From the NCBI GenBank assembly GCA_024220525.1, contig JAMYWO010000091.1, positions 85,131 to 125,130 of the forward strand: 40,000 bases of DNA, read 5' to 3'. The stretch's first letter is position 1; each line of letters begins with the position of its first letter. This document shows positions 40 through 37,692 of the stretch, piece by piece. The notes beneath the pieces are model-generated. The model was not told the origin of the DNA, ran no database searches, and saw only the letters and a program-made list of their open reading frames with translations. Both the position numbers and the translations under genes were made by a program. Origin of the DNA: Cochliopodium minus (lineage: Eukaryota > Discosea > Himatismenida > Cochliopodiidae).

Positions 40-714
40 TTACTTGATATGCTTTCTCTTATTCTCACTATATTCCCCCTGTTCAACTACTGCTTGAATA
101 CCCGCGAAAGTTGTGGCTTGCTCCTCAGAACAAGGATATAATTCAGACAAGATACTCTGTTTACATTGTTCATACACAAGATGCAATTGACCAGGATCAT
201 ATTTGTCTATATCATCATCTGTGAGAAAATATTTTTTTCTCAATATAACACAATCATCAGAAGTGATGCTTTGCTCCCTTAAACCAATTTTAGGATTCAA
301 CCATTTAAATTTATCTTGAACCATATATCCCAATGAATATTCAGGAGAGTTGGGGATACCCAATTTGGAACATACATTATCCACTATTTCTTGAACACTG
401 AGACTTATATCTTGCAAATTTGTTTTCAGAGAATTATCCATCAATTTGATTTTCAATATCTGATGTTTTTTGAGATAATAGAGCTCATCCCCTGTTATGA
501 TTTCATAATATACCAATGCATTGTTTGGTTTTAGCCATATTCCTCCCGGTTTGTCTTTATAAAACTTAAAGATCCCATGATCTTGACCACCCCAAGCTGT
601 TTTCTTGACAACCTTCTTTATTACATCATACACTTGCGTTGTATTTGTGGTACGAAGATTGGTATAATTTTCTTTATTTTCCCCCAAAAATATCTTCAAT
701 GTTACGTTTGCCAT
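40..714 (-). CDS. Talin, N-terminal FERM exon (partial)
   Basis: First exon of a talin-type cytoskeletal linker, which couples membrane receptors to actin. The 220-odd residues cover F0 (about 1-85), F1 (about 86-165) and the start of F2. Segments GIWLKPNNALVYY and LKIKLMDNSLKT match the F0/F1 boundary of animal talin, and LREQSITSDDCVILRKKYF followed by DPGQLHLVYEQ matches the F1/F2 junction. The reading ends at KRKHI-K, where talins continue with KHKAGFL; a GTAAAC donor lies there, so the apparent stop is intronic and the gene runs off the left edge. The start ATG at 714 begins exactly where the talin family starts. Talin identity is very likely; the rod domain is not visible. A shorter FERM-only relative cannot be excluded. 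Confidence 0.9.
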   Translation of the reverse strand: MANVTLKIFLGENKENYTNLRTTNTTQVYDVIKKVVKKTAWGGQDHGIFKFYKDKPGGIWLKPNNALVYYEIITGDELYYLKKHQILKIKLMDNSLKTNLQDISLSVQEIVDNVCSKLGIPNSPEYSLGYMVQDKFKWLNPKIGLREQSITSDDCVILRKKYFLTDDDIDKYDPGQLHLVYEQCKQSILSELYPCSEEQATTFAGIQAVVEQGEYSENKRKHIK

Positions 715-1066
715 TTTTAATATTTGATTTGAATGACCTAAATATAAAGAATTTTCTTTTTATATTTATACCCTATTTTTATTTAATTTTTTTATTTTAT
801 GTGAATGCTTCTCTAAATTTAAAAAAAAATGGAAGAAATGTTGGAATATTGAAGCTTACACAAGTGATATCTCTTGTACAAAAATATTTCGAAACACCAT
901 AAATTTACAGAAATTTCAAATATAAAATTTTTTTTTTCGAATCTTTCAAATTAAGGAAAATAGAAAAAAAATTGAAAAAAAGTTTGAAGTATATAAAGAA
1001 TAATCAAATTTTTTTTTTCGATACATCAAAAGAATTTTTTTATATCTCAAACTTGTAAGAAATATA
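715..1066. other. Intergenic: talin upstream region
   Basis: AT-rich gap between the talin start and the 3' end of pantothenate kinase. It holds homopolymer A and T runs. I see no RNA gene or convincing exon. It presumably contains the talin promoter. Confidence 0.6.
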
Positions 1067-2701: not shown

Positions 2702-4098
2702 TTACTTTTTATTTTTATTCTTTGCGAATTGTTTCCATAATTCCTCAAAATAGTTGGAAAAGCTGGTGATAAGCTTCTTGTTGTTGGTTACAATTATGTT
2801 TTCATTGTTACGAGTATTCGCAGTTGAAGTCCAATTATAAGATCCATTCAACAAAACAATACCATCAATGACTGCAAATTTGTTGTGCATGTGATATGGA
2901 GTAGAATCCATCTCAACAGGAATTCCAGCTTTGATGATGGTTTGGATATCAGAACCAGTGGACAAAGATTGGTCATCATCAGTGATAACTCTTACCTTGA
3001 CTCCTTTTTTGTGCAAATCAATCAAAATGTTAGCAACAGAATCATCAGTGATGGTGAATACACAAACTTCGAGGGTCTATTTCAAATAAAAGATGAGTAA
3101 GAGATCTAATATTAACTTTATTTTTAAACTGATTTCTAATTTTGATAGTATATTGATCAATATAGATTTATTTTTCAAATTTTCAAAAAAATTTATTATT
3201 ACCTTTTTTGGGGAAGAGAGATATTGAAGGAAGATCTCATAGTTGTTTCCATCAGTTTTATCAGTATCAGGGAAGAACAATGCTTCATTGAGATCTCCTT
3301 GGGTAGGATCCTTCAAGGTGGTAGTTGTCTTGAGATGGGTGATTTCGGTGCTGGATGAGACGACCTTTACATCTGCAATCAAATCTTCAATCAATTCTTG
3401 GAGATGGGACAATCCCTTGTTAGTACCTTCCAAGGTGACATGGGAAGTCTTTTCATCTCTTCCTGGGACGTTGATGTTGCATCCAGTCTTTTGTTCGAGA
3501 TCTCTAATGGTAGATCCTCCAGATCCAAGGATGATTCCGTGTTTATTTTTTGGGATATCCAATACCAATTGTCCAAATGGTTCCTCACCAATCTAAATTT
3601 ATGATCATAAAAAAATTGAAAAATTATGTGAATAAAAAATTTTTTAATGTTTTGTTGTCTTTATAAATATAAATTTTTAATTTTGATTTTGATTCTAACA
3701 AGATTTTGAAGATCAAATCAAGAGATATTAATTTTTATATTGAAGGATGATAATTTTTAAATTTGAACACGCAGATATATATTAAAAAAATTATTCAAAT
3801 AACAAATGGATTTCTCAATAAAAAATTCTTTTTTAATTATTTTAAAGTTTCTTACATCATATCCTAATTGATTTTCGATTTCATCTTTGCATGCAAGAAT
3901 ATCACTTTCCAAAGATCCAGTGACGGTGATTTGGGAAGAGTTATCTTCTTTTCTTGGGATATTAACTCTTACATTGAAGTCTTCTTGTAATCCTTTAACG
4001 TTAGATCCTCCTCTTCCAATCAAATTGAAATGAGATCTTTTTGGAACATAAAAGGTTTTGGAGATTTGGGTACTGCTGGTCTTTTTGGTGTTGGACAT
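2702..4098 (-). CDS. KH-KH-PLD fusion: RNA-binding Zucchini/PLD6-type nuclease
   Basis: Three exons (4098-3856, 3592-3203, 3076-2702), all phase 0, give 335 residues. KH domain 1 has the GRGG loop at about 28-31, and KH domain 2 has GSGG at about 104-107. The C-terminal 140 residues are a single-HKD phospholipase-D domain: H275-x-K277-x4-D282 followed by NGSYNW, preceded by LEVCVFTITDD and VKVRVITDDD. This order and spacing match animal PLD6/Zucchini and bacterial Nuc, which work as dimers because each chain supplies one HKD motif. PLD6 is a mitochondrial-surface endonuclease in piRNA maturation (a cardiolipin-hydrolase role is also reported). No N-terminal membrane anchor is visible here; the KH domains occupy that end. 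I infer an RNA endonuclease guided by its own KH domains; the substrate is unknown. Confidence 0.93.
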
Positions 4099-10488: not shown

Positions 10489-10719
10489 ATGAATGCATTT
10501 AAAATTGAATTTAATTCGGATGAACTATGCAAATACCTAGAAAGAAAACTCAATTTTGCCAACCAATATGCTGATCTTTTGAGGATAAACCATATTGATG
10601 GAAATTCTTTTCTCAAAATGGATCTCAAAAATTTAAAAGATACTGGAATTATCATCATTGGCCATAGGATCAGGTTCTACAGAATTATCTTGAAACAGAC
10701 TCAAAAGTTACACCATTGA
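10489..10719 (+). CDS. Single SAM-domain mini-protein (cluster member 1)
   Basis: 76 residues that are essentially one sterile-alpha-motif domain. ELCKYLERKL is helix 1, QYADLLRINHIDGNSFLKM matches the SAM core (Y..L..N.IDG..FL.L), and IIIIGHRIRFYRIIL matches the last helix, where many SAM domains have GxRxKI. There is no signal peptide, membrane span or other domain. The start is at the ATG after a run of A. It is closely similar to the gene at 12799, indicating recent duplication. SAM domains pair or polymerise and some bind RNA; a SAM-only protein can cap another SAM polymer. The specific role is unknown. Confidence 0.85.
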   Translation: MNAFKIEFNSDELCKYLERKLNFANQYADLLRINHIDGNSFLKMDLKNLKDTGIIIIGHRIRFYRIILKQTQKLHH

Positions 10720-12798
10720 GAAATTTTTCTTCAACGCAAATATAAAATAATTTTTTTATTCCAAACATCATTTGTTCTATTGATTGATATTTGATCAACA
10801 AATAAAATACATTTTGTAAATTACTTTATTCTTACTCTTTTATTTTTCAGTATATCTTTTAAATTTTATTTAATTTTTATTTGAATCATTTCCGTTTGCA
10901 GAAATCTTTAAATATAATTCTTTTTTCCAAAGTTGATTTTCCTAAAGCTTCATGATGCTAAATTATTCATCTTTTATAACCATTATTTTTTCCATTTGCT
11001 TTTTTTCTTTTATAATTTTGTGAGATAGGAGGGATTTAACAAATTTAAAGAATCTTCAAAATTGTATCAAATCAAAAAAAAAAGTTGTTGACAGATGATC
11101 TTTTTTTTTAAAGGTTGATGAGTTTCACTTTGAATGAATTAATTGAGTCAAAGCGAATTCATCAAAAATTTCAAGGAGAATTATATTAAAAAATAAAATC
11201 AAAATAAAAAAAATTGATCTCATCTATGCAAGAAATATAGAAATAATTAATCTACTTTTCATCTTTAAGAAGTTTACCAAAGTTTTTGGGAATACTTGAT
11301 TGGATTTTTTTTCAACGTATTCGTTCAAAAAATTGAGAAAAAGAAAAAATTAAGCAATATCGAAACATGTTACAAAGAACCTGAATTCATTGATGTAAAG
11401 AACCCACATTCGTGATAGAATGGACTCTTAGTTTTTTAAATAGTTACATTCGTAATACTCTAACAAAATTCATTTTTAAATCAACTTTTTTTTTTGTAAT
11501 AGGGCTATTATTGGGCATGCATTTGCCCAAAATAAATCGAAGATTAATATTTTTATCAATAATTGAAATCAAATATAAATTTATTATCTTATTTTAATTT
11601 ATTATTTAAAAATTTAAATTTAAATTTCTTTAAAATTTCAAAATTGATCTTCACAAAATTGAAACTGAACAAGTGAATGATTATGGATTGAATAAAAATT
11701 TGAAAATGTAATTAATAGATTAAAATAGAGGAATGGAATTACGTTCAATTAAAGTTGATGTTAGAAAAATTTTAATTTATTGGGTATCATATTTGAAAAC
11801 ATAATGAAGCACAACAAATTATAAAAAGATAATTAAGAAATGATTAAGAAAGATTTGAAAATATTTTAATGAAATTAGTTGATAAAACCTTCAATGATGA
11901 ATATGGAATCAATGAACTTGTAGATAGGATAAAAAAGGGAAAGTTTGATGGAATTTGATGAACAATAAAAATGGAACCTTTCAAATTACTTACATTTAAT
12001 AAATATGACTCAACAAAAAACCCAAGAGTATTACTTATGGAAGATATCATTCTTTGTGAGTATATTGGATTATTTTATTTGAATAACTTGTTAATATTTG
12101 AATGGGGACAAAGAATTTGGAGAAGGTTGATTTTGATTGAAAAAATATATATATATATATATTTCATCATTATCAATTTATTTTCTATGGAGATCATTTT
12201 TTTTTGTTCAATCCAATATTTTTCCATTATTGTACAACAGTAGATTTATTTAAAAGTTCATTTTTCAAATTTCTAAAAGATTTCCAATTTTGTGATCAAA
12301 ATCTTTTAATCTACCTATTTGGATTTATTTACTTTTCTTTATTTGATGTTAAAGATTAGTGTCACATTCAATTCAAAAACATTTTGATACTCTTTAATTT
12401 CTTTTGTGTTAAATTTTATTTATTCATCTTTCTGAAATATCCCCTTAAGCTGTTTGAATATTATTTTATTATTCGTGTGTCAGGAGTTTATATTATATAA
12501 AAATAAAAATAATATAATTTAAATTTAATTATATAATTTGAAATATATCAGGTAATAATCCATAAAAAATTTGCTCTTTTAAAAGGAAAATTGGTTATGT
12601 TTTTTTCGAATGGTACAAAAAATAAAATTGTTGAATTAATTCCTTCAATTATTTTTTCATTCTATATACTACATGAAATAAATCTTCTATCAATGATGTA
12701 GTAATTGGAAAAGAGGGTTTATGGGATTCATTTTAGACATTAAATTTTGGGATTTAATTGCTGAATCGTGTTTGTAAAAATTTATTAAAAAAAAAAAA
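10720..12798. other. 2.1-kb spacer between SAM genes with possible gene remnants
   Basis: Long AT-rich spacer. Around 11870-12245 there are two short plus-strand frames: one reads MKLVDKTFNDEYGINELV and stops early; the next, starting at 11971, reads MEPFKLLTFNKYDSTKN and becomes low-complexity. They have somewhat protein-like composition but match nothing I know and may be the decayed remains of a host gene. The rest is A/T-runs and a short TA repeat near 12150. No RNA gene is seen. Confidence 0.3.
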
Positions 12799-13029
12799 AT
12801 GAACGCATATAAGGTCGAATTTAATTCAGATGAGCTATGCGAATACCTGGAAAGAAAACTCCATTTTGCCAATCAATATTCTGATTTCTTCAGGATAAAC
12901 CATATTGATGGAAATTCCTTTCTTAAAATGGAGCTCAAAAATTTGAGGGACCTTGGGATTGTTATCATAGGACATAGAGTGAGGTTCTACAGGCTCATTT
13001 TAAAGCAGAATCAAAAGTTCTTCAACTAA
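12799..13029 (+). CDS. Single SAM-domain mini-protein (cluster member 2)
   Basis: 76 residues, one SAM domain, near-duplicate of the gene at 10489 with mainly conservative changes. Shared blocks include FNSDELC, RINHIDGNSFLKM and FYRLILKQ. The conservation of INHIDG and IIGHRVR against a fast-drifting AT-rich background suggests that the protein is maintained by selection. Its A-rich leader before the ATG also resembles that of member 1. Function unknown; likely a SAM oligomerisation partner of its neighbours. Confidence 0.85.
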   Translation: MNAYKVEFNSDELCEYLERKLHFANQYSDFFRINHIDGNSFLKMELKNLRDLGIVIIGHRVRFYRLILKQNQKFFN

Positions 13030-13972
13030 AAAAAAAAAAAAATATATAATTATTTTTAATTATAAAAAACAAACACCAAATTTTCCAAACAGAGAACAAT
13101 CAAAATAGGAAGTTTAATCACAAAATACAATAAAAGAGAATAAATTATTAAAAATTTTTTTTAAAAAACAGAAAATATTTTATATTCTTCTTTAAGATTT
13201 TTTTTTTTTTTTTAAAGATTTCTTCAATTAAATTCAATTTTTACTGTTGTTATCATTGCTATCTTCATTTGCCATATTGAGGCTTGGTATTGTTTCTTGA
13301 TGGAAATCGGGAATTTCTTCATAAATAAGAAATAATTTCGAATATTTATTTTCAAATTAAAAATAATAAATAATTTAATTAAATTCAAAATTAAAACATA
13401 AAAAATTTTGATTATATTTTGGCTTTTGAGAATAGAGAATAAGCTTTAAAGAATGTTACTAATAGAATCTTTTTCATTTTTTTTTTGAGAGGAGGAAGTT
13501 TTCTCAAAGTTGTTAAGATTATATTTTGGAAATGGTTTTGTTTGTTTTTTCTTTTTCTTTTAAAAGAAAATTAAAATGTTTTAAATGAAATTTCATTAGC
13601 AAATGTAAATTTTTCACATTAAATAAAAAACTCCATTTATTGTACGGATCTATTGATTTGAATCTAATTTCAAATCTTAATTTATTTTTTTATTTAACAA
13701 AAAACAAAATTGTCAAATCAACGAAAAAGATTTCAAAATCAATTTAAATAAAATGACTTTTGAATCTTCTAAAAATACTTCTTGTTAATTTCATTTATTA
13801 CATTCAGTGTTTTCTTTTGCGAATATATTTGAAATTTATATCATATTAAATTTATAAGTTTTCTCTGAAATAGTAAAAATTAAATATTTATTTATTTCAC
13901 AAAGTAAATAAAATAAAATTTATATAATAAAAAAATATAAAAAAAAAAATTCAAGAAATTTGAAGCTCAATA
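13030..13972. other. Spacer with a possible orphan minus-strand exon pair
   Basis: Mostly featureless AT-rich DNA. On the minus strand, 13316-13234 reads as a terminal exon, IPDFHQETIPSLNMANED onward, to a stop. About 140 nt upstream, roughly 13560-13460, is a lysine/serine-rich frame with a GTAACA donor in matching phase. Further upstream exons could not be found, so this is either the tail of an unrecognised gene or a remnant. See also the findings. Confidence 0.25.
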
Positions 13973-14200
13973 ATGAACAAATTTAGAGTTGATTTCACAG
14001 AGGAAGAACTTTGCAACTGGATAGATTTGAAATTACCTTGTGGATACCTTTACTTGGATCTCCTGAAAATAAATCACATGAACGGGATGAATTTTTTGAA
14101 ATGCTCACTTTCCATGTTGAAAGAAATTGGAATTGTTGTCATAGGGCATAGATTGAGCTTTTACAAAATTGTTTTAAAGAAAAAACATAAGCTGAATTAG
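13973..14200 (+). CDS. Single SAM-domain mini-protein (cluster member 3)
   Basis: 75 residues, one SAM domain, more diverged: FTEEELCNWIDLKL, LKINHMNGMNFLK and IVVIGHRLSFYKIVL. Tryptophan in helix 1 (CNW) is closer to canonical SAM domains (W..V..WL). It has no extra domains. It is in the same orientation as members 1, 2 and 4. Confidence 0.83.
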   Translation: MNKFRVDFTEEELCNWIDLKLPCGYLYLDLLKINHMNGMNFLKCSLSMLKEIGIVVIGHRLSFYKIVLKKKHKLN

Positions 14201-15083
14201 GGATTTATCTTGATGTACATAATTACTTTTTCTCTTTTTCAATACTTTCCTTCTTCTTAAATTTTCTTATTTGATGTATTTATGGACAAAATTCGTTGTA
14301 TAATTAAAAATTTTTTTTCAAATATAAATATATATCTCAATCACAATCACAATATGCCCTCATTGATCAATTTATTTTTTAACCCTTATCATTCCCTTTT
14401 TTTGAATCAACAATTTGAAGAAATAATTTCATTATTAATAAATTTAAATTGAAATTAATTTAATTTTCCAAAGAAATCCAAAGCTATATTTTTAATTAAA
14501 TTTAAAATTCTTTTATCAATTTTCACAAAATTTTAAAATTAAAAGTTTTTTGATTATGTAAATTCTCCTCTTTTTTAACAAATTGTTACCAAACAAAATT
14601 TTATCCAAGAGTAAAATAACTTTGTTTCAAAGTAAAATGTAGTTTTCATGCAATATTTACAAGAAACAATAATATTAACAAGTTATTATTGTTGAGGTTT
14701 ATCTTTCCAAAACTTGCATGTGAGTAACACATGTATTGGTAAAATCATATTAATTTTTAAAAAAGAATTTTTAAAGTGAAACAAAATTAAAAAAAAAAAA
14801 AGTAATTTCAGAATATTTCGTTTCAAGTATCTTTCATTTTGACAAAAATTTAGATGTGAAATGGATTTTTAAAAATTATGTTAACAATATTTAAAAATAA
14901 TTTGAAATATTTTAAAATTCTAAAGTGTGTAACTAATATTTGTGTTTGGTTCCACTTTTACGTTTTTTGGACTTTTAAAAAAATCTCCTTTTAAATAATT
15001 TTATAAAAAAAATTTGTTATCTATATTTGTTGGGTATTTTTTCAAACAAAAAAAGAAAGAAAATATAAAATTGAATTTGAATA
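14201..15083. other. Intergenic spacer upstream of the triple-SAM gene
   Basis: About 880 bp of AT-rich DNA in which I see no gene, repeat or RNA fold. Confidence 0.5.
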
Positions 15084-16037
15084 ATGAAAGAATTCATAAA
15101 GAGAACTGAAATGTTTATATCTTCAATAAAAGAATCACCATTAAAATGGAACAAGACAGATTTGATAGATTGGATGATAATATTACGGTATGAAGACTAT
15201 ATACCACTCATAAACAAAAAGAGGATGAGTGGAAGAAAATTCATAGAGATGTTGAATGATAAAGAAAAATTGAAGAGATTTGGAATTGTGAAGATAGGTC
15301 ATATCAGGCTAATGAGATTGCATATGTGCAAGTTGGGAATAAATTTTGAAAGACTCAAAAAAATTGAAAAGAAAACATACACCGAACCATTGAAGAATAA
15401 ATTTGAAGCACAATATGAGGTGATATCACCACGATCCAATTTAAAATTTGATACAATCACACCAATGTTTCTCAAAAAAATGAGCAAAAGCTTGGGACAT
15501 TTAAAAGAAAAAACAAAGAAGATTAAAAAAATTGGCAAAAAGGTTCTCTATTGGGATTATCTTGATATCACATCTTGGTTGAAGGTCATTGATTTGCAGG
15601 ATTATGTGCATTCATTCATTGCTAATTCTATAAGAGGAGATATCTTGTTGGATCTCAAAGAATCGCATCTGAAGGAGATGGGGATACATTCCATGGGAAC
15701 CATCAAAAGAATTTTAAAATCCATAAAGCAATTATATCCCTCTTATTTCAAGGAATTGAAACAAAAAGAAAAAGATCTGAAGATTCCCATCAATATGAGT
15801 GCATCTTCCAAACAATTAGAAGAATGGAATGTCTTTGATGTTTTAAAATGGTTAGATAAAATTGGCATGTCTGAATATAATTGCATCTTCATCAAGGAAA
15901 TGGTCGATGGCAAAGTTCTCTTCAGCCTCAATAAAAATGATCTCAAAGATCTTGGTATAACTGCAATTGGACATCAAAAAATTATATTGACAAACATTGA
16001 GAAAATGAATGAGAAAGAAAAGAATATTATGATTTGA
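15084..16037 (+). CDS. Triple SAM-domain protein (cluster member 4)
   Basis: 317 residues, no intron. Three SAM domains lie in tandem: residues about 18-87 (KWNKTDLIDWMIILRYEDY to FGIVKIGH), about 152-217 (YWDYLDITSWLKVIDLQDY to MGIHSMG) and about 240-305 (EEWNVFDVLKWLDKIGMSEY to LGITAIGH). Linkers are lysine-rich, with a basic stretch (KEKTKKIKKIGKK) before SAM 2. The canonical W..D...WL first helix is present in SAM 2 and SAM 3, so these look more like ordinary scaffold SAM domains than the mini-proteins do. It sits at the centre of the cluster and is a natural candidate for the polymer core that the single-SAM proteins bind. That partnership is inference. Confidence 0.88.
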   Translation: MKEFIKRTEMFISSIKESPLKWNKTDLIDWMIILRYEDYIPLINKKRMSGRKFIEMLNDKEKLKRFGIVKIGHIRLMRLHMCKLGINFERLKKIEKKTYTEPLKNKFEAQYEVISPRSNLKFDTITPMFLKKMSKSLGHLKEKTKKIKKIGKKVLYWDYLDITSWLKVIDLQDYVHSFIANSIRGDILLDLKESHLKEMGIHSMGTIKRILKSIKQLYPSYFKELKQKEKDLKIPINMSASSKQLEEWNVFDVLKWLDKIGMSEYNCIFIKEMVDGKVLFSLNKNDLKDLGITAIGHQKIILTNIEKMNEKEKNIMI

Positions 16038-16138
16038 ACTTTTAAAAAAAATTTAATTTTCCTTTGGGATGTTGTAAATAAATATTTTTGAATATAATTA
16101 TTTATATCAAATTATCACAACAATATTTTTTTTGTTTT

Positions 16139-16393
16139 TCATAGCTTTGAATCTATTTTGATATGTTTCAATTTCTTTTCAGCCAAGATCAATTCAAAAA
16201 TTTCTACACTAAATCCCATTGGAAAACCCATATCACAAAGTTTTGTTATATTCAAGTGCAAAAATTCTTTTCCATCTATCTTATTTTCTTTGAATATATG
16301 AAGATTCTCATTTAGTGTTGGTATTCTTGTCAAAATCCATTTACATAACTCTTCTTGTGTGAATTCTTTTCTAAAATACTCTTCTACTCTCAT
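16139..16393 (-). CDS. Single SAM-domain mini-protein (cluster member 5)
   Basis: 84 residues with the cluster's SAM pattern: FTQEELCKWILTRI, FKENKIDGKEFLHL and MGFPMGFSVEIFELIL. The usual GHR turn is replaced by GFS, so the last-helix binding face may differ. It is tail-to-tail with the triple-SAM gene, with stops only about 100 bp apart. Confidence 0.78.
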   Translation of the reverse strand: MRVEEYFRKEFTQEELCKWILTRIPTLNENLHIFKENKIDGKEFLHLNITKLCDMGFPMGFSVEIFELILAEKKLKHIKIDSKL

Positions 16394-16560
16394 TTTTTTT
16401 TTGACCTTTTTTCTTTTTATTAATCTTTTTTATGAAACAATTTTTATTTTTGACATATGAAATTTCACACAAAACAAATTAAAATTTTATTAAATTCTTT
16501 TAATTTTAATTAATTATTTTAATTTACACTCTAAAAATTCTTTCAAAAAAATCTTGTGTT

Positions 16561-16809
16561 CTAGTCATCCTGATTAAAAAAATTTGGATTTTTAACATTG
16601 TTATCAACTATCAGCTGATACAATAAAATTTTGTATCCTAAATCATTGATACCCATTTCACCCATCTTTTCAAAGTTTAGTTGAAGAAAATTCTTTCCTT
16701 CAATATGATTGCTTTTCAAATTATTTATCACTTGGATACCATTTAAAATTTTGGAAGATATCCATTGTTCAAAATCTTCAGAGTTACTTTCTTCTTTAAA
16801 ATCTGTCAT
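16561..16809 (-). CDS. Single SAM-domain mini-protein, most diverged (cluster member 6)
   Basis: 82 residues. SAM signature is weaker but present: EDFEQWISSKI, NNLKSNHIEGKNFLQLNF and MGINDLGYKILLYQLI. The position of GHR is GYK. The first ATG opens the frame after an A/T-rich leader. Assignment depends partly on its place in the cluster. Confidence 0.7.
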   Translation of the reverse strand: MTDFKEESNSEDFEQWISSKILNGIQVINNLKSNHIEGKNFLQLNFEKMGEMGINDLGYKILLYQLIVDNNVKNPNFFNQDD

Positions 16810-17244
16810 TCCTTTTCTTTTTATTTTTTATTTATTTTTCTAAAGAAATTTGAAATTTAAAAAAACATATCAAAATTTCATTTAAATTTTTATTTTAAAC
16901 TAAAGAAATTTCAATGAAATGAAAACCTTTTACGGAAAAAATGTTATTCAGTCAGATTTTTTCAACAAACAAAGAATGAACTTAAAAGTGATCTAATCAA
17001 TCTTCCACATTAAAATGTGGAAAAATAATTATTAGGAATATTTATTTTTCTTCATAATCACAATTTAAAATTGGTTTAAAAATAGATTGGCTAAGGAATA
17101 AGCGAATATAAATTGAAGGAAAGTGGATATCCTTGTATTTATGAATAATATAAATATTTTATTTAATCTTCCTAACAAATAATCTTTTTTCTTGTTCAAA
17201 GAAAACTATAAACTACAAAAAAACCATGTTTGAACCCTATCATT
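16810..17244. other. Intergenic spacer in SAM cluster
   Basis: 435 bp of AT-rich DNA with a short inverted repeat (CCACATTAAAATGTGG, near 17005-17020) and no recognisable gene. Confidence 0.4.
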
Positions 17245-17484
17245 TCACAAAGTAGAAATTTTACAGTCCAGTTTAAGATTATCAATGAGATTAGTAAATC
17301 TGAGTCTGTTTCCTATCGAAATGATACCAATGTTCTTTAAATCAGGGAGGGTTAGCATTATGAAAGAGTGTCCATTGATGTGATTTGCTCTCAAAATATT
17401 CAAGAATTCATCAGCAAAAGGAATGTTTCTTTGAAGCCATGAACATAATTGCTCAGAGTCGAAATCCAATATATAATCTTGCAT
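17245..17484 (-). CDS. Single SAM-domain mini-protein (cluster member 7, duplicated copy)
   Basis: 79 residues. SAM pattern: FDSEQLCSWLQRNIPFADEF, LRANHINGHSFIML and IGIISIGNRLRFTNLI. It is nearly identical in protein and in the 5' leader to the gene at 18807-19031, and belongs to the same tandem duplication that carries an orphan TRAF exon. It has a few extra C-terminal residues compared with its twin. GNR replaces GHR in both. Confidence 0.85.
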   Translation of the reverse strand: MQDYILDFDSEQLCSWLQRNIPFADEFLNILRANHINGHSFIMLTLPDLKNIGIISIGNRLRFTNLIDNLKLDCKISTL

Positions 17485-17828
17485 TTCTCAATTTTATTGC
17501 TCTAAAAATTTTTTTTATTTTTTTATTTTTTTTTTTTTATTATTTATAATAATATTTTTTAATCTTCGAATTTCACAAATTCTAAAACGAAAATAAATCA
17601 CTCAAACAAAACCTTATTCATGAGTATCACAAATAATAGGAGATTATTCAGATTTTAAAGTTCTCAAAATTTAATTTTTGAAAAAATTGTGCTTGTGGAT
17701 TATGATTTTTTATATCATCCTTAAGGATAAATTTTTGTTTATTTTGGATTTCCAAAAAGAAATTTCATTTCGAAGGTTTTTTAACAAAAAAAAAAAATTT
17801 CAAAAACTTTTAATTTCAAAAATTTGAA

Positions 17829-18060
17829 TGAAATGCTTTCGGAGAATAAATTCATAATTTTACGAGTGTTATACCAAGGAAATGAGAAGTTTTAAATAGT
17901 AGTCAAAACGGAGGTGTGGCATCCCATCATTAAAGAGTTTGCTCCATTTACTTCTTTATCGTAATTTTCTGTACATTGACAAGTGCTCCAGCATGAGTAA
18001 CAGTTATTTTCGTGTGTTAGGAGATTTTTGGTGGGGAAAGTGATTGTGCAGGTTCCAAAA
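17829..18060 (-). pseudogene. Orphan, decayed copy of the last exon of the RING-TRAF gene
   Basis: Closely matches 19349-19655 (the TRAF-type zinc-finger exon), including the 3' splice region, but it is shorter, lacking an internal stretch of about 45 bp that encodes part of the zinc-finger segment (near 19400-19445 in the intact copy), and its frame is not maintained. No RING exon is found upstream before the next SAM gene, so it cannot make the full protein. It arose by the tandem duplication of the adjacent SAM gene. Confidence 0.8.
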
Positions 18061-18110
18061 TCGTATCCATATCTTCAAAAAAAAATTTTTGTTTTACAAG
18101 AGTCAAAATT

Positions 18111-18806
18111 AAATATTGAAAAAAATGAACTATTTTCCCTAGAATTAAACAAAAAAATTGAAGTAAAATAATTTTATACAAAAAATTTCTCAGAAAATAT
18201 TTTTTTGAAAATCGAATAAAAAACATTAAAATAAATCTTTTATTTATTAATTCTTTTTATTACATATGAAAAAAAAAAATCTGTTAAAAAAACACTCCAA
18301 AAATTCTTTAAAAGAAAGTTTTGTTTGTTTTCTAGTAATCTTGATTACAAAATTTGAATTAATATCAATAAAATTTTGTTTCTCATTTCACCAATCATTA
18401 CAAAGATTAGTTTTTTCTTTCAAGATAAAGTCAAATTATTTATTTTTGAGATTATATGAAATTTTTTAATTCTTTTTGCAAAATCTATATTCCTTCTTTC
18501 CATTCTTTTGGTATCTTATTTTTTTTAATTCTATGAAAAGAGTTCAAATTCACAATATTTTTAATATTCCCTGAATAAATTTATTTAAATTTATTCAATA
18601 ATACAATATCGATTTCACAAATTTTCAATTACAACTTTGTCAAGTTGATTTTTTGTTCCGATTCTTGTTTGATCAAAGTTAATGAAAAACAATTTCAATC
18701 TTTAAACAAAATTTTTAAACAATAAAATATTTTTAATCTTCTGTTTCAAATAAGAAAACTATAAAACTACAATAATACAATTTGAGTTCCTAATTTTTCA
18801 CAAAAG
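18111..18806. other. Intergenic spacer in SAM cluster
   Basis: About 700 bp between the orphan exon and the next SAM gene. Only low-complexity AT-rich DNA; open frames here look random. Confidence 0.5.
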
Positions 18807-19031
18807 TCAAAATTCCGCTTTAAGATTATTGATGAGATTTATAAATCTGAGTCTGTTTCCAACAGAAATGATACCAATGTTCTTTAAATCAGAGAGGGTT
18901 AACCTTATGAAAGAGTGCCCGTTGACGTGATTTGCTCTCAAAATATTCAAGTATTCATCAGCAAATGGAATGTTTCTTTGAAGCCATGAACATAATTGCT
19001 CAGAGTTGAAATCCAGTTCATAATCTTGCAT
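18807..19031 (-). CDS. Single SAM-domain mini-protein (cluster member 8)
   Basis: 74 residues, one SAM domain: FNSEQLCSWLQRNIPFADEY, LRANHVNGHSFIRL and IGIISVGNRLRFINLI. Differences from member 7 are few and mostly conservative. It lies about 320 bp downstream of the RING-TRAF gene on the same strand, which is likely the parental arrangement copied to give member 7 and the orphan exon. Confidence 0.86.
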   Translation of the reverse strand: MQDYELDFNSEQLCSWLQRNIPFADEYLNILRANHVNGHSFIRLTLSDLKNIGIISVGNRLRFINLINNLKAEF

Positions 19032-19720
19032 TTCTCAATTTTATTGCTCTAAAAATTTTTATCTTTTTTTTTTTATTTTTTTATTATAATTTTTATTTTT
19101 TATTATATAAATAATATTTCATTTCACAAATTCGTTGATTCACACAATAAAAAACGCAAATAAATCAACAATTAAAATTTAATTTCATTTTCACATACAT
19201 CAAACAAGTTGAATTTCTCCATTTTTGTCTTCAAATTTCCTGTGCTTTTGGATTAATAATTTATTTTTAATTTCACAAAAATAATGAAATTTCAATGAAT
19301 GAAAATTAGAACAGAATACACTTTATTTAGAAAAATTAAAGGAGGATTTCATTTTTTAAGGGAGGAACAATGCTTTCGGAGATGAAGATCATAATTTTTA
19401 CGAGTGACATACAAAGGACAACCTTTATTGGTACATTTGACACGAACATATGGACAGCTTTCGAAATGAGAAGTTTTATCTGCAGTCAAAATGGAGGTAT
19501 GGCATCCCATCTTTAAAGAGTTTGCTCCATTTACTTCTTTATCGTTAATTTCTGTTCCTTGACAAGTGCTCCAGCATGAGTAACAGTTATCTTCGTGTGT
19601 TAGGAGATCTTTGGTGGGGAAAGTGATTGTGCAGGTTCCAAAATCGTATCCATATCTTCAAAAAAAAAAAAAAGAGATGAATATCAAGAGACAAAATTAA
19701 TTATTCTTTATAAATATTAT
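18807..19720. repeat. Tandem duplication, right (parental) copy
   Basis: Counterpart of 17245-18110. It includes SAM member 8, its leader and the complete last exon of the RING-TRAF gene with part of the intron. Confidence 0.75.
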
Positions 19721-20264
19721 CAATATCTTCTGTTGATATAAAAATTTCTTCATATTCTTTATATAAAAGTTGTAAAGTGATGATATTCAAAATAAAAAAT
19801 CATAATTCTTCCAATAATTAATACAATTTAAAGAGAATTGTTAAGATCATCAAATGATTTAGAATATAAATGAAGTTCATTGAATTATATAACTTATTTC
19901 AAAAAAAATATAATATTCTTTACCTGCATTTCATATTCATTTGTTCAATCCTCTTTTGAAGTTTGACATTCAATTTTTTCTCGATTATTTGTTTGCCACA
20001 AATTTTACAATTACTATCTTTGGATATACAGGCTTCGCAAAAAATATGTCCACAAGATAATGAAAAAGGATTGAGAAATAGAGTATCACATATCTTACAT
20101 TTCAACGTCTCATCAATCTTACCAATGATTAATTTCTCTTCCAATTTCAAATTCGTTTTATATACTTTCTTTAGAATAGGATATTCGTATTTATTTGTTC
20201 TTTTGGGTGGTTCAACATTATCTGAGCTCCTATCAGATGAAAAATTGATATTGAAGAATTTCAT
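19349..20264 (-). CDS. RING finger plus TRAF-type zinc-finger protein
   Basis: Two exons (20264-19924 and 19655-19349) joined within an Arg codon give about 215 residues. Residues about 57-95 form a C3HC4 [18 protein letters not shown] and CKIC, typical of E3 ubiquitin ligases. The second exon carries cysteine/histidine pairs of TRAF-type zinc fingers ([42 protein letters not shown]). There is no C-terminal MATH domain, so this is a RING-TRAF-zf protein like the many in amoebae, probably an E3 ligase. The last exon was copied downstream in the SAM cluster. Confidence 0.88.
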
Positions 20265-34629: not shown

Positions 34630-34917
34630 TTTTATTTATATTTTCTCTTTTATAAAATTCTTTGTTTGGAACTATCAACATGATAATAAGAAAGAATTGC
34701 AAATATTCATTTTATTTGTGATTTTCAAACTTTGAATTATAAAATTTTCCTTAAGAATTTTTCTCTAACAAAAAAACTAGAATGATTTTCTGAGGAATGG
34801 AAAATTTTTGTTTTGAAGATAATTTTTTTGTGGAATTTTATGTGATCCAAAAATTTTCTTATCTCAAAGAAAATCAAAAGAAATATTAAAAAAAGTTGGA
34901 AAAGGAAATAAAAAAAA
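34630..34917. promoter_or_regulatory. Divergent promoter: ethanolamine kinase / ankyrin gene
   Basis: 288 bp between two opposite-strand ATGs, AT-rich with A/T runs immediately before each start. It must contain both promoters; no specific element is recognised. Confidence 0.4.
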
Positions 34918-37692
34918 ATGAGTAGAAGAAGAAGTCCAAATAAAAAAGAAGAAAATGAAGAAAAGAATAAAGAAATAAAAGATTTGGCTGTAGGGCCTAT
35001 TGATCATTATGAAACAAAAGAGTTGATATTGAACAACAAAAATTTAAAAACAGTTGGATACAGTGCTATTCACTTTCTTTGCATGAACCAAAATCTTAAC
35101 CTACAAAATTTGAAATTAATTTCTGAATTGCAAATCGACATAAATATTCTCTCAGTCAATAAGAATGAGTCCATTCTTCATTTGATCTCACAAAATCAAT
35201 CAAATATTCAGTTCTTTGAGTATGTGATTAAAAAAAACAAAAAAATGCTATCTTTTAAAGATACAAACGGTAATACACCTCTATTATATGCTTTAATCAA
35301 CCCTTCCATCTCTATCAACATTATAAAATATATGATAGAAAATAAATCAGAGATAAATTGCTTAAACTCAATAAATGAAACACCTTTATTATTTATGCTA
35401 TCTAATTTTAATTCTGATCAAAATTTTCGTTACTTTTTCCCAAAAATAAAAATATTGATTGAAAACAAAGCAGATTTGAATATTAGGAATGCAAATGACA
35501 AAACTATTATTCATTTAATATTGAAAGAAGACAAGAAAATAGATTTGGATGTAACGAAATATTTAATTGAAAGAATGGATTTAAATTTGAAAAATTCTTC
35601 AGAAGAAACAATCTTTTTTTCTTTAATAAAAAGAGAAAAGGGAAATATTCCCTTTGATATTATAAAACTCATGGTAGGGAACCAAACAGATTTGAACTCT
35701 ATCAACAAAAAAAATGAAAATATTCTACATTGTTTGTTTGGGGACAATCAATTTGGTTATTACAGCTCTATAGTAAATCTACTGATTGAAAATGATTTGG
35801 ATTTGAATCTTCAAGATAATGATAATAAATTTACACCTTCACATTTATGTTTTGGATCTGTCACAGTTTCCTTAGATATTGTTAAATTATTTCTTGAAAA
35901 AAAATGTGATCTGAACGTTACATCAAAAAATAAAGAAAATCCCTTTCACTTTCTTTGTAAAAATCAAAGTGTTGACCTTGAAATGATCAAATGCTGCGCC
36001 AATAATAATGATTCATTAGTTGATTCTCTAAATCTCTCAAATGAAACACCTCTCCTTATTCTTTCTTCAAACAAATGTGTATCGCTTGAAATTATCAAAT
36101 TTATGATTGAAATTAACTCTAAAATTGAACAAGTTGATAAATACCAGAATTCAGTGCTCCATAACGCAATCAAAAATAATTTATCATATGAAATAGTTGA
36201 TTATTTGATTAATAAGAAATGCAAAGTGAACAAAAAAAATCAAAATAATGACACTCCTTTTCACATTCTTTGTGAAGGAAAAGATGTTTCTTTCGATGTT
36301 TTTAGGTTGTTTGTTGAAACAAAGGGGAACGTAAACATTAAAAACAAACAAGATTTTTCTCCTCTTTCAAATTTGATAAAAAATAAAAGTTGTAATAATG
36401 ATCAGTTTCAATTTATTTTGGAAAATAGAAAAGTTGATAAAATAAAACTTCTTCACTCTTGTTGTATTGAAAATGATATTGAAAAAATAAAAATTTTGAT
36501 TGAAAATAAAGTGAAAGTAAATTGTGTTGACGAAAATAATGTTTCTCCACTTCACACTTGTTGTAAAATTGAAAAAATTGACATCAAAATCGTTAAATAT
36601 TTGATAGAAAAAAAGAGCAATCTAAACAACAAAGATGATTCAAATAATACTCCAATTTCTTTAATCATGACTAAAAAAGTTCCAGATTTTACTTTTGCAA
36701 AGTTGTTAATTGATAGTAAATGTGATGTAAATCAAAAAATTAAAAAATCAGGGGTACTTCTTCACCTTGCTTGTAAATTTTCAAATACTCCTATTGATCT
36801 TCTTTCTCTTCTTATTGAAAATACAAAAGAGATAAACTCCAAAAATTCAAATGGGATGACACCACTCCACATTGCTTCAAACACAAGAAAGCCAAACATA
36901 GAAATATTGATGTTATTGATTGAGAAAAAATGTAATGTCAATGAATTTACATCCAAGAATGAAACTCCTCTACATTTGTTTTGCAAAAAATCTCCTTCTG
37001 AAAAGGACATTAAGATGTTGCTTGAATGCAAATGCGATTTGAATCTACTAAATGCTAATAACGAATCTGCTCTCTTTGAAATTTCCAAAGCAACCAATAT
37101 TCAAATGATGAGATTTTTGGTTTGCTTGAAAGGTGATATTTCAATCAAAAACAAAAGTGGTATCTCTCCTTTTCAAAATTTTATTTTCAAAAATAAATTC
37201 TCCAACGATTATGAAATGTCAATAATTTATCTTCTTCAGAATGGTGGAGATTTGAATGAAGTTGTTGAGAAGACTGATCAAACAATATTGATGAAATTAT
37301 TTTCTTTTGATGATATAAAAGAAGATAATATGAAATTCTATATTTTTTCTGGTGGAGATTTTGATGTTATTTCGAAGAAATTTGTTGAATACAAAAAATA
37401 TTCTGAATCTTACCAGAGAGGTACTTTGTGGTCTTACCAGGACTTTAAATATCTACCCTTTTTCTTTCAATCCAGAATAATTACATACTTCATGTGCGTG
37501 AAATGCATGTCCAAAAATCTCAAGATTGTTTTCCCAAGACCTCTTCATTCAATCATCTTGAAATTCTCTGTTGATTTTTTTGTAAAGAGATCAAATCCTT
37601 TCAACTTTACAAATAACAAAAGAAAAACAACAGAGAAAGGCGAAATTGAAGTGATTCAAGAAAAAAACAAAAAACTCAAAACTAAAAAATAA
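34918..37692 (+). CDS. Ankyrin-repeat protein, 924 residues, intronless
   Basis: More than 20 degenerate ankyrin repeats of about 33-36 residues fill residues 50-800, with recurrent N-x-T-PLH/LL, IVKYLIEKKSNLN and LLIENK units (for example NGMTPLHIASNTRKPNIEIL). The N-terminus is charged. The last 120 residues differ: WSYQDFKYLPFFFQSRIITYF then KIVFPRPLHSIILKF, a C-terminal block with IPxPL-like features that I recognise only as common to ankyrin proteins of protists, and a basic, nuclear-localisation-like tail (RKTTEKGE to KKLKTKK). It is a scaffold; no catalytic domain. Absence of introns contrasts with most neighbours and could reflect a lineage-expanded or retroposed gene family. Confidence 0.9.
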   Translation: MSRRRSPNKKEENEEKNKEIKDLAVGPIDHYETKELILNNKNLKTVGYSAIHFLCMNQNLNLQNLKLISELQIDINILSVNKNESILHLISQNQSNIQFFEYVIKKNKKMLSFKDTNGNTPLLYALINPSISINIIKYMIENKSEINCLNSINETPLLFMLSNFNSDQNFRYFFPKIKILIENKADLNIRNANDKTIIHLILKEDKKIDLDVTKYLIERMDLNLKNSSEETIFFSLIKREKGNIPFDIIKLMVGNQTDLNSINKKNENILHCLFGDNQFGYYSSIVNLLIENDLDLNLQDNDNKFTPSHLCFGSVTVSLDIVKLFLEKKCDLNVTSKNKENPFHFLCKNQSVDLEMIKCCANNNDSLVDSLNLSNETPLLILSSNKCVSLEIIKFMIEINSKIEQVDKYQNSVLHNAIKNNLSYEIVDYLINKKCKVNKKNQNNDTPFHILCEGKDVSFDVFRLFVETKGNVNIKNKQDFSPLSNLIKNKSCNNDQFQFILENRKVDKIKLLHSCCIENDIEKIKILIENKVKVNCVDENNVSPLHTCCKIEKIDIKIVKYLIEKKSNLNNKDDSNNTPISLIMTKKVPDFTFAKLLIDSKCDVNQKIKKSGVLLHLACKFSNTPIDLLSLLIENTKEINSKNSNGMTPLHIASNTRKPNIEILMLLIEKKCNVNEFTSKNETPLHLFCKKSPSEKDIKMLLECKCDLNLLNANNESALFEISKATNIQMMRFLVCLKGDISIKNKSGISPFQNFIFKNKFSNDYEMSIIYLLQNGGDLNEVVEKTDQTILMKLFSFDDIKEDNMKFYIFSGGDFDVISKKFVEYKKYSESYQRGTLWSYQDFKYLPFFFQSRIITYFMCVKCMSKNLKIVFPRPLHSIILKFSVDFFVKRSNPFNFTNNKRKTTEKGEIEVIQEKNKKLKTKK

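Follow-up and report, generated by a model that had tools for sequence, protein, structure and literature searches.

We identified a cluster of eight SAM-domain genes at positions 10489-19031 of a 40,000-nucleotide stretch of the Cochliopodium minus genome (assembly GCA_024220525.1, contig JAMYWO010000091.1, positions 85,131 to 125,130 of the forward strand; hereafter the window). All eight are complete single open reading frames (ORFs) from ATG to stop and together hold ten SAM domains: seven encode mini-proteins (minis) of 74-84 residues consisting of a SAM domain only, and the eighth, T, encodes a 317-residue triple-SAM protein. Substitution patterns indicate that purifying selection acts on at least four of the minis, A1, A2, C1 and C2, and the cluster arose through local gene duplication. 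We consider the chances about even that it represents a locally duplicated family of stand-alone SAM adaptors.

The ORFs bear out the layout claimed in a first-pass annotation of this DNA, with four plus-strand genes followed by four minus-strand genes in 8.5 kb, seven of them SAM-only and one triple-SAM. The genes, labelled in window order, are as follows.

10489-10719, plus strand: A1, SAM-only, 76 residues; ORF, Pfam SAM_2 match (E = 2.4e-07), AlphaFold2 model with a predicted local distance difference test score (pLDDT) of 95.4
12799-13029, plus strand: A2, SAM-only, 76 residues, twin of A1; ORF, Pfam match, ratio of nonsynonymous to synonymous divergence (dN/dS) against A1
13973-14200, plus strand: A3, SAM-only, 75 residues; ORF, Pfam match under cut-off, leave-one-out profile E = 3.4e-22
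15084-16037, plus strand: T, triple-SAM, 317 residues, single ORF; three SAM_1 stretches, E = 7e-42
16139-16393, minus strand: B1, SAM-only, 84 residues, divergent, basic end-helix residues lost; leave-one-out profile E = 2.9e-15, AlphaFold2 pLDDT 87.4, Foldseek matches to SAM folds
16561-16809, minus strand: B2, SAM-only, 82 residues, divergent; Pfam SAM_2 match (E = 2.4e-04, over cut-off), leave-one-out profile E = 1.9e-14
17245-17484, minus strand: C1, SAM-only, 79 residues, twin of C2; ORF, Pfam match, dN/dS against C2
17485-17550, minus strand: 5' leader of C1, still resembling the C2 leader in alignment
18807-19031, minus strand: C2, SAM-only, 74 residues; Pfam SAM_2 match (E = 6.3e-12)

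Protein identity is 24-48% between minis that are not twins, 78% for A1/A2 and 84% for C1/C2. Complete divergence of the spacers, also claimed earlier, holds for distant members and for most intergenic DNA, but not for the pairs A1/A2 and C1/C2 or for the partly similar C1/C2 leaders. Searched with the family profile, the window gave no further SAM fragment that reached the inclusion threshold (next best E = 0.13), although a SAM domain split by an intron could escape this search. In a tree of the minis and the T domains, a single split separates the two sets with 98/98 support, though the branches are long and the program cautions against false joins of this kind.

SAM identity of the encoded proteins

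Sequence profiles place the genes in the SAM superfamily, six of the eight by Pfam (SAM_1 or SAM_2 over the curated cut-off) and all seven minis by leave-one-out profiles. The Pfam match of A3 lies under the cut-off (E = 0.0032), and B1 has no Pfam SAM match at E values up to 10, a range in which the HMMER filters drop most matches above about 0.1. Each leave-one-out profile excluded the member under test as well as its close twin and was searched against 1,648 six-frame fragments. The minis were recovered at E values of 2e-14 to 1e-23, with the best non-SAM fragment at E of at least 0.063, and B1 scored 52.8 bits, whereas none of 2,000 shuffles of its own sequence exceeded 12.1 bits. A match to the Pointed-type domain SAM_PNT was found in T and in no mini.

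Structure models were made with AlphaFold2 for two of the seven minis, A1 and B1, using an alignment of the seven paralogues only as input. The A1 model (pLDDT 95.4) has five helices and the B1 model (pLDDT 87.4) has six as assigned by DSSP; each is a compact helical SAM fold with a long last helix, upholding the SAM fold claimed earlier. The best Foldseek matches of A1 were HYP/Aveugle chains, recognized by their length and through a PDB profile search, together with Scm (top-ten template modelling (TM) scores 0.74-0.80, probability 1.00), and those of B1 were L3MBTL3 and Scm (top-ten TM scores 0.70-0.76). The best 50 rows for each model were all chains holding SAM domains. A PDB profile search with the minis was led by Scm, ZAK, SAMD12 and CNK2. 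The models thus predict that the SAM fold is present both in a typical member, A1, and in a divergent one, B1.

Selection and local duplication

The two close pairs evolve conservatively. Between A1 and A2, 44 of 228 bases and 22% of residues differ, with synonymous divergence (dS) of 1.12, nonsynonymous divergence (dN) of 0.11 and dN/dS of 0.10 (Fisher p = 5e-10), and C1/C2 have dS of 0.24, dN of 0.08 and dN/dS of 0.35 (Fisher p = 0.024), the counts of synonymous and nonsynonymous differences being rounded for both tests. When neutral evolution was simulated, 164 of 2,000 A1/A2 runs stayed open and none of the 164 reached the observed protein identity; for C1/C2 it was reached in 6 of the 499 runs, again out of 2,000, that stayed open. 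The proportion of nonsynonymous differences (pN) was below that of synonymous differences (pS) in 20 of 21 mini pairs and about equal to it in B2-C1 (0.506 versus 0.509).

Similarity in the pairs is concentrated in the coding parts. A1/A2 are 80.5% identical in coding sequence and 48.2% and 55.7% identical in the 300-base flanks, values that fall within the 44.5-58.1% found for unrelated spacer pairs (n = 30). For C1/C2, identity falls from 88.9% in the coding part to 63.5% upstream, with a conserved leader of about 65 bases, and to 49.0% downstream; the leader block, which takes in the first coding bases, is identical at 69 of 80 aligned bases. The suggestion in the first-pass annotation that the members are under selection therefore stands in part: neutrality can be ruled out for A1/A2 and is disfavoured for C1/C2, and distant pairs with B2 settle nothing. 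Pseudogene status of A1, A2, C1 and C2 was ruled out by selection together with coding-versus-flank identity, and chance ORFs were ruled out by these two lines of evidence, selection being detected in two pairs, along with the leave-one-out profiles and the shuffles.

Local duplication has left its clearest trace beside C1, in a dead fragment of a neighbouring gene:

17832-18085, minus strand: partial dead copy of the TRAF zinc-finger exon next door; it carries an in-frame stop, and the alignment has a gap of 46 bases
19349-20264, minus strand: RING/TRAF zinc-finger gene from which the dead copy derives, putatively with a single intron between two exons; RING matches over cut-off

The TRAF-like zinc-finger matches of the source gene are under cut-off, and a GT donor and an AG acceptor are visible in its sequence. 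The dead copy derives from its second exon, with 95% identity over 185 bases; although the fragment is dead, the SAM frame of C1 is open. A single duplication event fits poorly, because divergence is about 5% for the dead copy but 20% at synonymous sites of C1/C2, and the intervening DNA is not alignable. Gene conversion or two events may have been involved at the C1/C2 block. The dead copy looks younger than the C1/C2 split, in surroundings that do not align.

Possible functions and rival explanations

SAM domains can dock through two faces: a study of ANKS3 describes a mid-loop that is acidic and an end helix with a ring of basic residues (PMC4105859), and a review of multi-SAM proteins gives the same two faces (PMC10252437). 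We aligned the ten SAM domains with five solved SAM fragments and tabulated residues at these faces. At the mid-loop reference position of DGK-delta, which we take to be D43, the residue is Asp in C1, C2 and the third domain of T (T3), Asn in A1 and A2, Met in A3, Lys in B1, B2 and T1, and His in T2. A1-A3, C1 and C2 keep the end-helix signature GHR/GNR, whereas B1 has GFS and B2 GYK at this site; the end-helix segment carries a net charge of +3 in A1 and A2, +2 in A3, C1 and C2, +1 in B2 and -2 in B1. Both markers of a polymer-former, mid-loop Asp and a basic end helix, thus occur in C1, C2 and T3 and are not found together in the other seven domains; A1-A3 keep GHR without the mid-loop acid, and B1 has neither marker. 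These surface residues hint at members that differ in usable docking face, but the marker rule fails on solved SAM domains.

If the minis are stand-alone adaptors, each would dock one face, mid-loop or end helix, on a SAM domain of a larger partner, by analogy with HYP/Aveugle and SAMD12 on CNK and with Mae on Yan. The nearest candidate for such a partner would be the triple-SAM protein T. Groups A and C, having kept the basic end-helix signature, could dock through the end helix; for B1, in which it is lost, and B2, in which it is changed, docking would use a different face or would not occur. A further reading, in which the locus is a self-contained assembly kit with T as seed, C as two-faced subunit and A and B as one-faced or altered terminators, strikes us as improbable; if it were true, copy number and expression would set the length of SAM polymers in the cell.

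Several observations weigh against the adaptor reading and its evidence. The Foldseek E-values are modest, the best being 1.8e-03 for A1 and 2.3e-03 for B1 and none reaching 0.001 or less. A codon-based coding-potential score gave 0.09-0.29 per codon for the SAM ORFs and a median of 0.21 for 39 control ORFs; it does not separate the two and is uninformative, with eight stops in one of its ten training stretches and real exons among the controls. Three distant pairs, all with B2, have dN/dS of 0.44 (A3-B2), 0.68 (B2-C2) and 0.99 (B2-C1) at dS of 0.85-1.70, near saturation, and such ratios can neither support constraint on B2 nor prove its absence. In the remaining 16 of the 21 mini pairs dS is saturated, so that they do not constrain dN/dS of A3, B1 and B2. 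Against the marker rule, the references Scm and SAMD12 carry Met and Lys, respectively, at the mid-loop position, and the mid-loop segment has a positive rather than an acidic net charge in C1 (+1), C2 (+2) and DGK-delta (+1). With these failures, the residue markers do not decide docking faces.

Ordinary birth-and-death is a possible explanation, though we think it somewhat unlikely; the members would then be variants of a single housekeeping adaptor in dose or expression, would form no special toolkit and would not divide the docking faces among them, and some, such as B2, might be drifting. Plain duplication would account for the dead fragment carried along as a passenger in a local copy and for conservative evolution of the close pairs, and the B2-C1 ratio allows relaxed constraint on B2; the strong differences between groups, at 24-48% identity, may nevertheless mean more than dosage, as may the changes of B1 and B2 at end-helix residues otherwise common to the minis. 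Were the array only a dosage duplication, its value would lie mainly in annotation, genes of about 75 residues being easily overlooked. We regard as unlikely a polymer and capper toolkit of the sort inferred in the first-pass annotation, in which C and T3 co-polymerize head to tail and members that have lost a face cap the ends, A through its end helix. The distribution of the two markers would suit it, and Mae offers a precedent, capping Yan through loss of one face according to PMC3355116. However, the residue rule breaks down on Scm and SAMD12, mid-loop net charge does not separate the groups, and the 30 ORFs scanned in the window include no large SAM-bearing polymer-former except possibly T; in addition, HYP, the closest fold, forms a discrete dimer with CNK, going by a title cited in PMC11257983.

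That the cluster is a family diversifying under positive selection for self/non-self or target recognition, as the first-pass annotation had ventured, is very improbable. A local array of diverged paralogues is what such a family would leave, and the B2-C1 ratio of 0.99 points the same way, though near saturation; the close pairs are instead under purifying selection, and pN is below pS in every pair but B2-C1, where they are about equal. The claim accordingly lacks support in the close pairs and could still apply to B2, whose comparisons are near saturation. We give almost no credence to an artefact, in which the ORFs would be chance, pseudogenes or single exons of larger genes. The ORFs are short, the region is AT-rich and the C block does contain one true pseudogene fragment, but the leave-one-out profiles and shuffles and the selection in two pairs speak against it. 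Moreover, the open frame preceding the ATG (from 10468 in A1 and 12778 in A2) contains no AG, so no upstream exon can join there after an ordinary GT-AG intron.

Window context and known systems

The window is AT-rich (17.9-33.1% G+C per kb), and a Pfam scan of 30 ORFs or ORF pieces gave eukaryotic matches: talin head, Fumble (pantothenate kinase), KH, PLD, Integrator subunit 5 and a PPP5 region, and further RRM domains, choline kinase, ankyrin and Sel1 repeats and protein kinase. Three of these regions are listed here.

40-759, minus strand: talin FERM head, with an F0 domain match and Talin-1 as best PDB sequence matches, which may point to a host among or near amoebozoans or animals
2702-4098, minus strand: two KH-domain ORFs and after them a PLD-like ORF, which may together form a single multi-exon KH-KH-PLD gene
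34912-37692, plus strand: stop-free ankyrin-repeat ORF of 926 residues

No 7-mer or 8-mer with at least two G/C was shared by four or more of the eight regions upstream of the SAM genes. The 6-mers TGTTTG and TTTGTG occur in five of the eight (p = 0.001-0.002 before correction for 666 6-mers). The commonest 9-mer of the window with at least two G/C, TTTCACAAA, occurs 13 times on the two strands combined, whereas 200 simulated runs averaged 3.85 and never exceeded 10. The plus strand of 13895-19271 holds eight of these, six within the cluster bounds and two just beyond its end; with one mismatch allowed, there are 29 plus-strand and 7 minus-strand occurrences in 10-20 kb versus 20 and 28 elsewhere in the window. 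This enrichment was found after looking and may be chance.

Searches for relatives covered viral, prokaryote and phage collections, not eukaryotes, and reach mainly close relatives. None were found among viral contigs (queries: the seven-mini alignment, A2, T and a five-member alignment), prokaryote genome contigs (C2 and the five-member alignment) or phages (A2 only). Limited literature searches, of the titles of open papers only, found no description of such a SAM-gene layout, in agreement with the first-pass annotation, whose author knew of no such system.

The SAM domains of Scm, L3MBTL3 and Ph/PHC3 have high structural similarity to the A1 and B1 models. Scm is a polymer-former, and all of these are domains of larger chromatin proteins, whereas the minis are whole proteins. 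Caskin, liprin and SARM1, multi-SAM scaffolds that are all among the PDB sequence matches of T, resemble it in that T has three SAMs per chain, but T has no non-SAM domain over any Pfam cut-off. A different class, the RNA-binding SAM domains of Vts1 and Smaug, is marked by a conserved basic motif in helix 5 that binds RNA.

HYP/Aveugle of the fly, whose chains are the top Foldseek matches of A1, is an adaptor with a single SAM domain, which docks onto CNK in head-to-tail fashion, according to PMC11257983 and PMC10272126. The human CNK adaptor SAMD12 ranks fourth in the PDB profile search of the minis. A further likeness to HYP and SAMD12 is a loop between helices 1 and 2 that, in the alignment, is about two residues longer in the minis than in T and DGK-delta. 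Against this, A1 identity is about 24%, with Scm about as close; there is no CNK-type match among the 30 ORFs scanned; and seven minis stand in one cluster here. In HYP, helix 5 contacts the CRIC domain of CNK. Mae, according to PMC3355116, is a monomeric SAM protein that caps Yan, its end helix disabled by an aspartate, and is thus a stand-alone SAM protein with one docking face lost. By the residue markers, A1-A3 would be its reverse, Mae having kept the mid-loop and lost the end helix, and B1 seems weak on both; no mini, moreover, has a SAM_PNT match. Neither SAM-only proteins nor tandem duplicates are new in themselves. Mae and HYP/Aveugle, the SAM-only proteins compared here, are described singly, and an array of seven minis beside a triple-SAM gene would offer a natural panel for the gain and loss of docking faces and for the tuning of SAM scaffolds.

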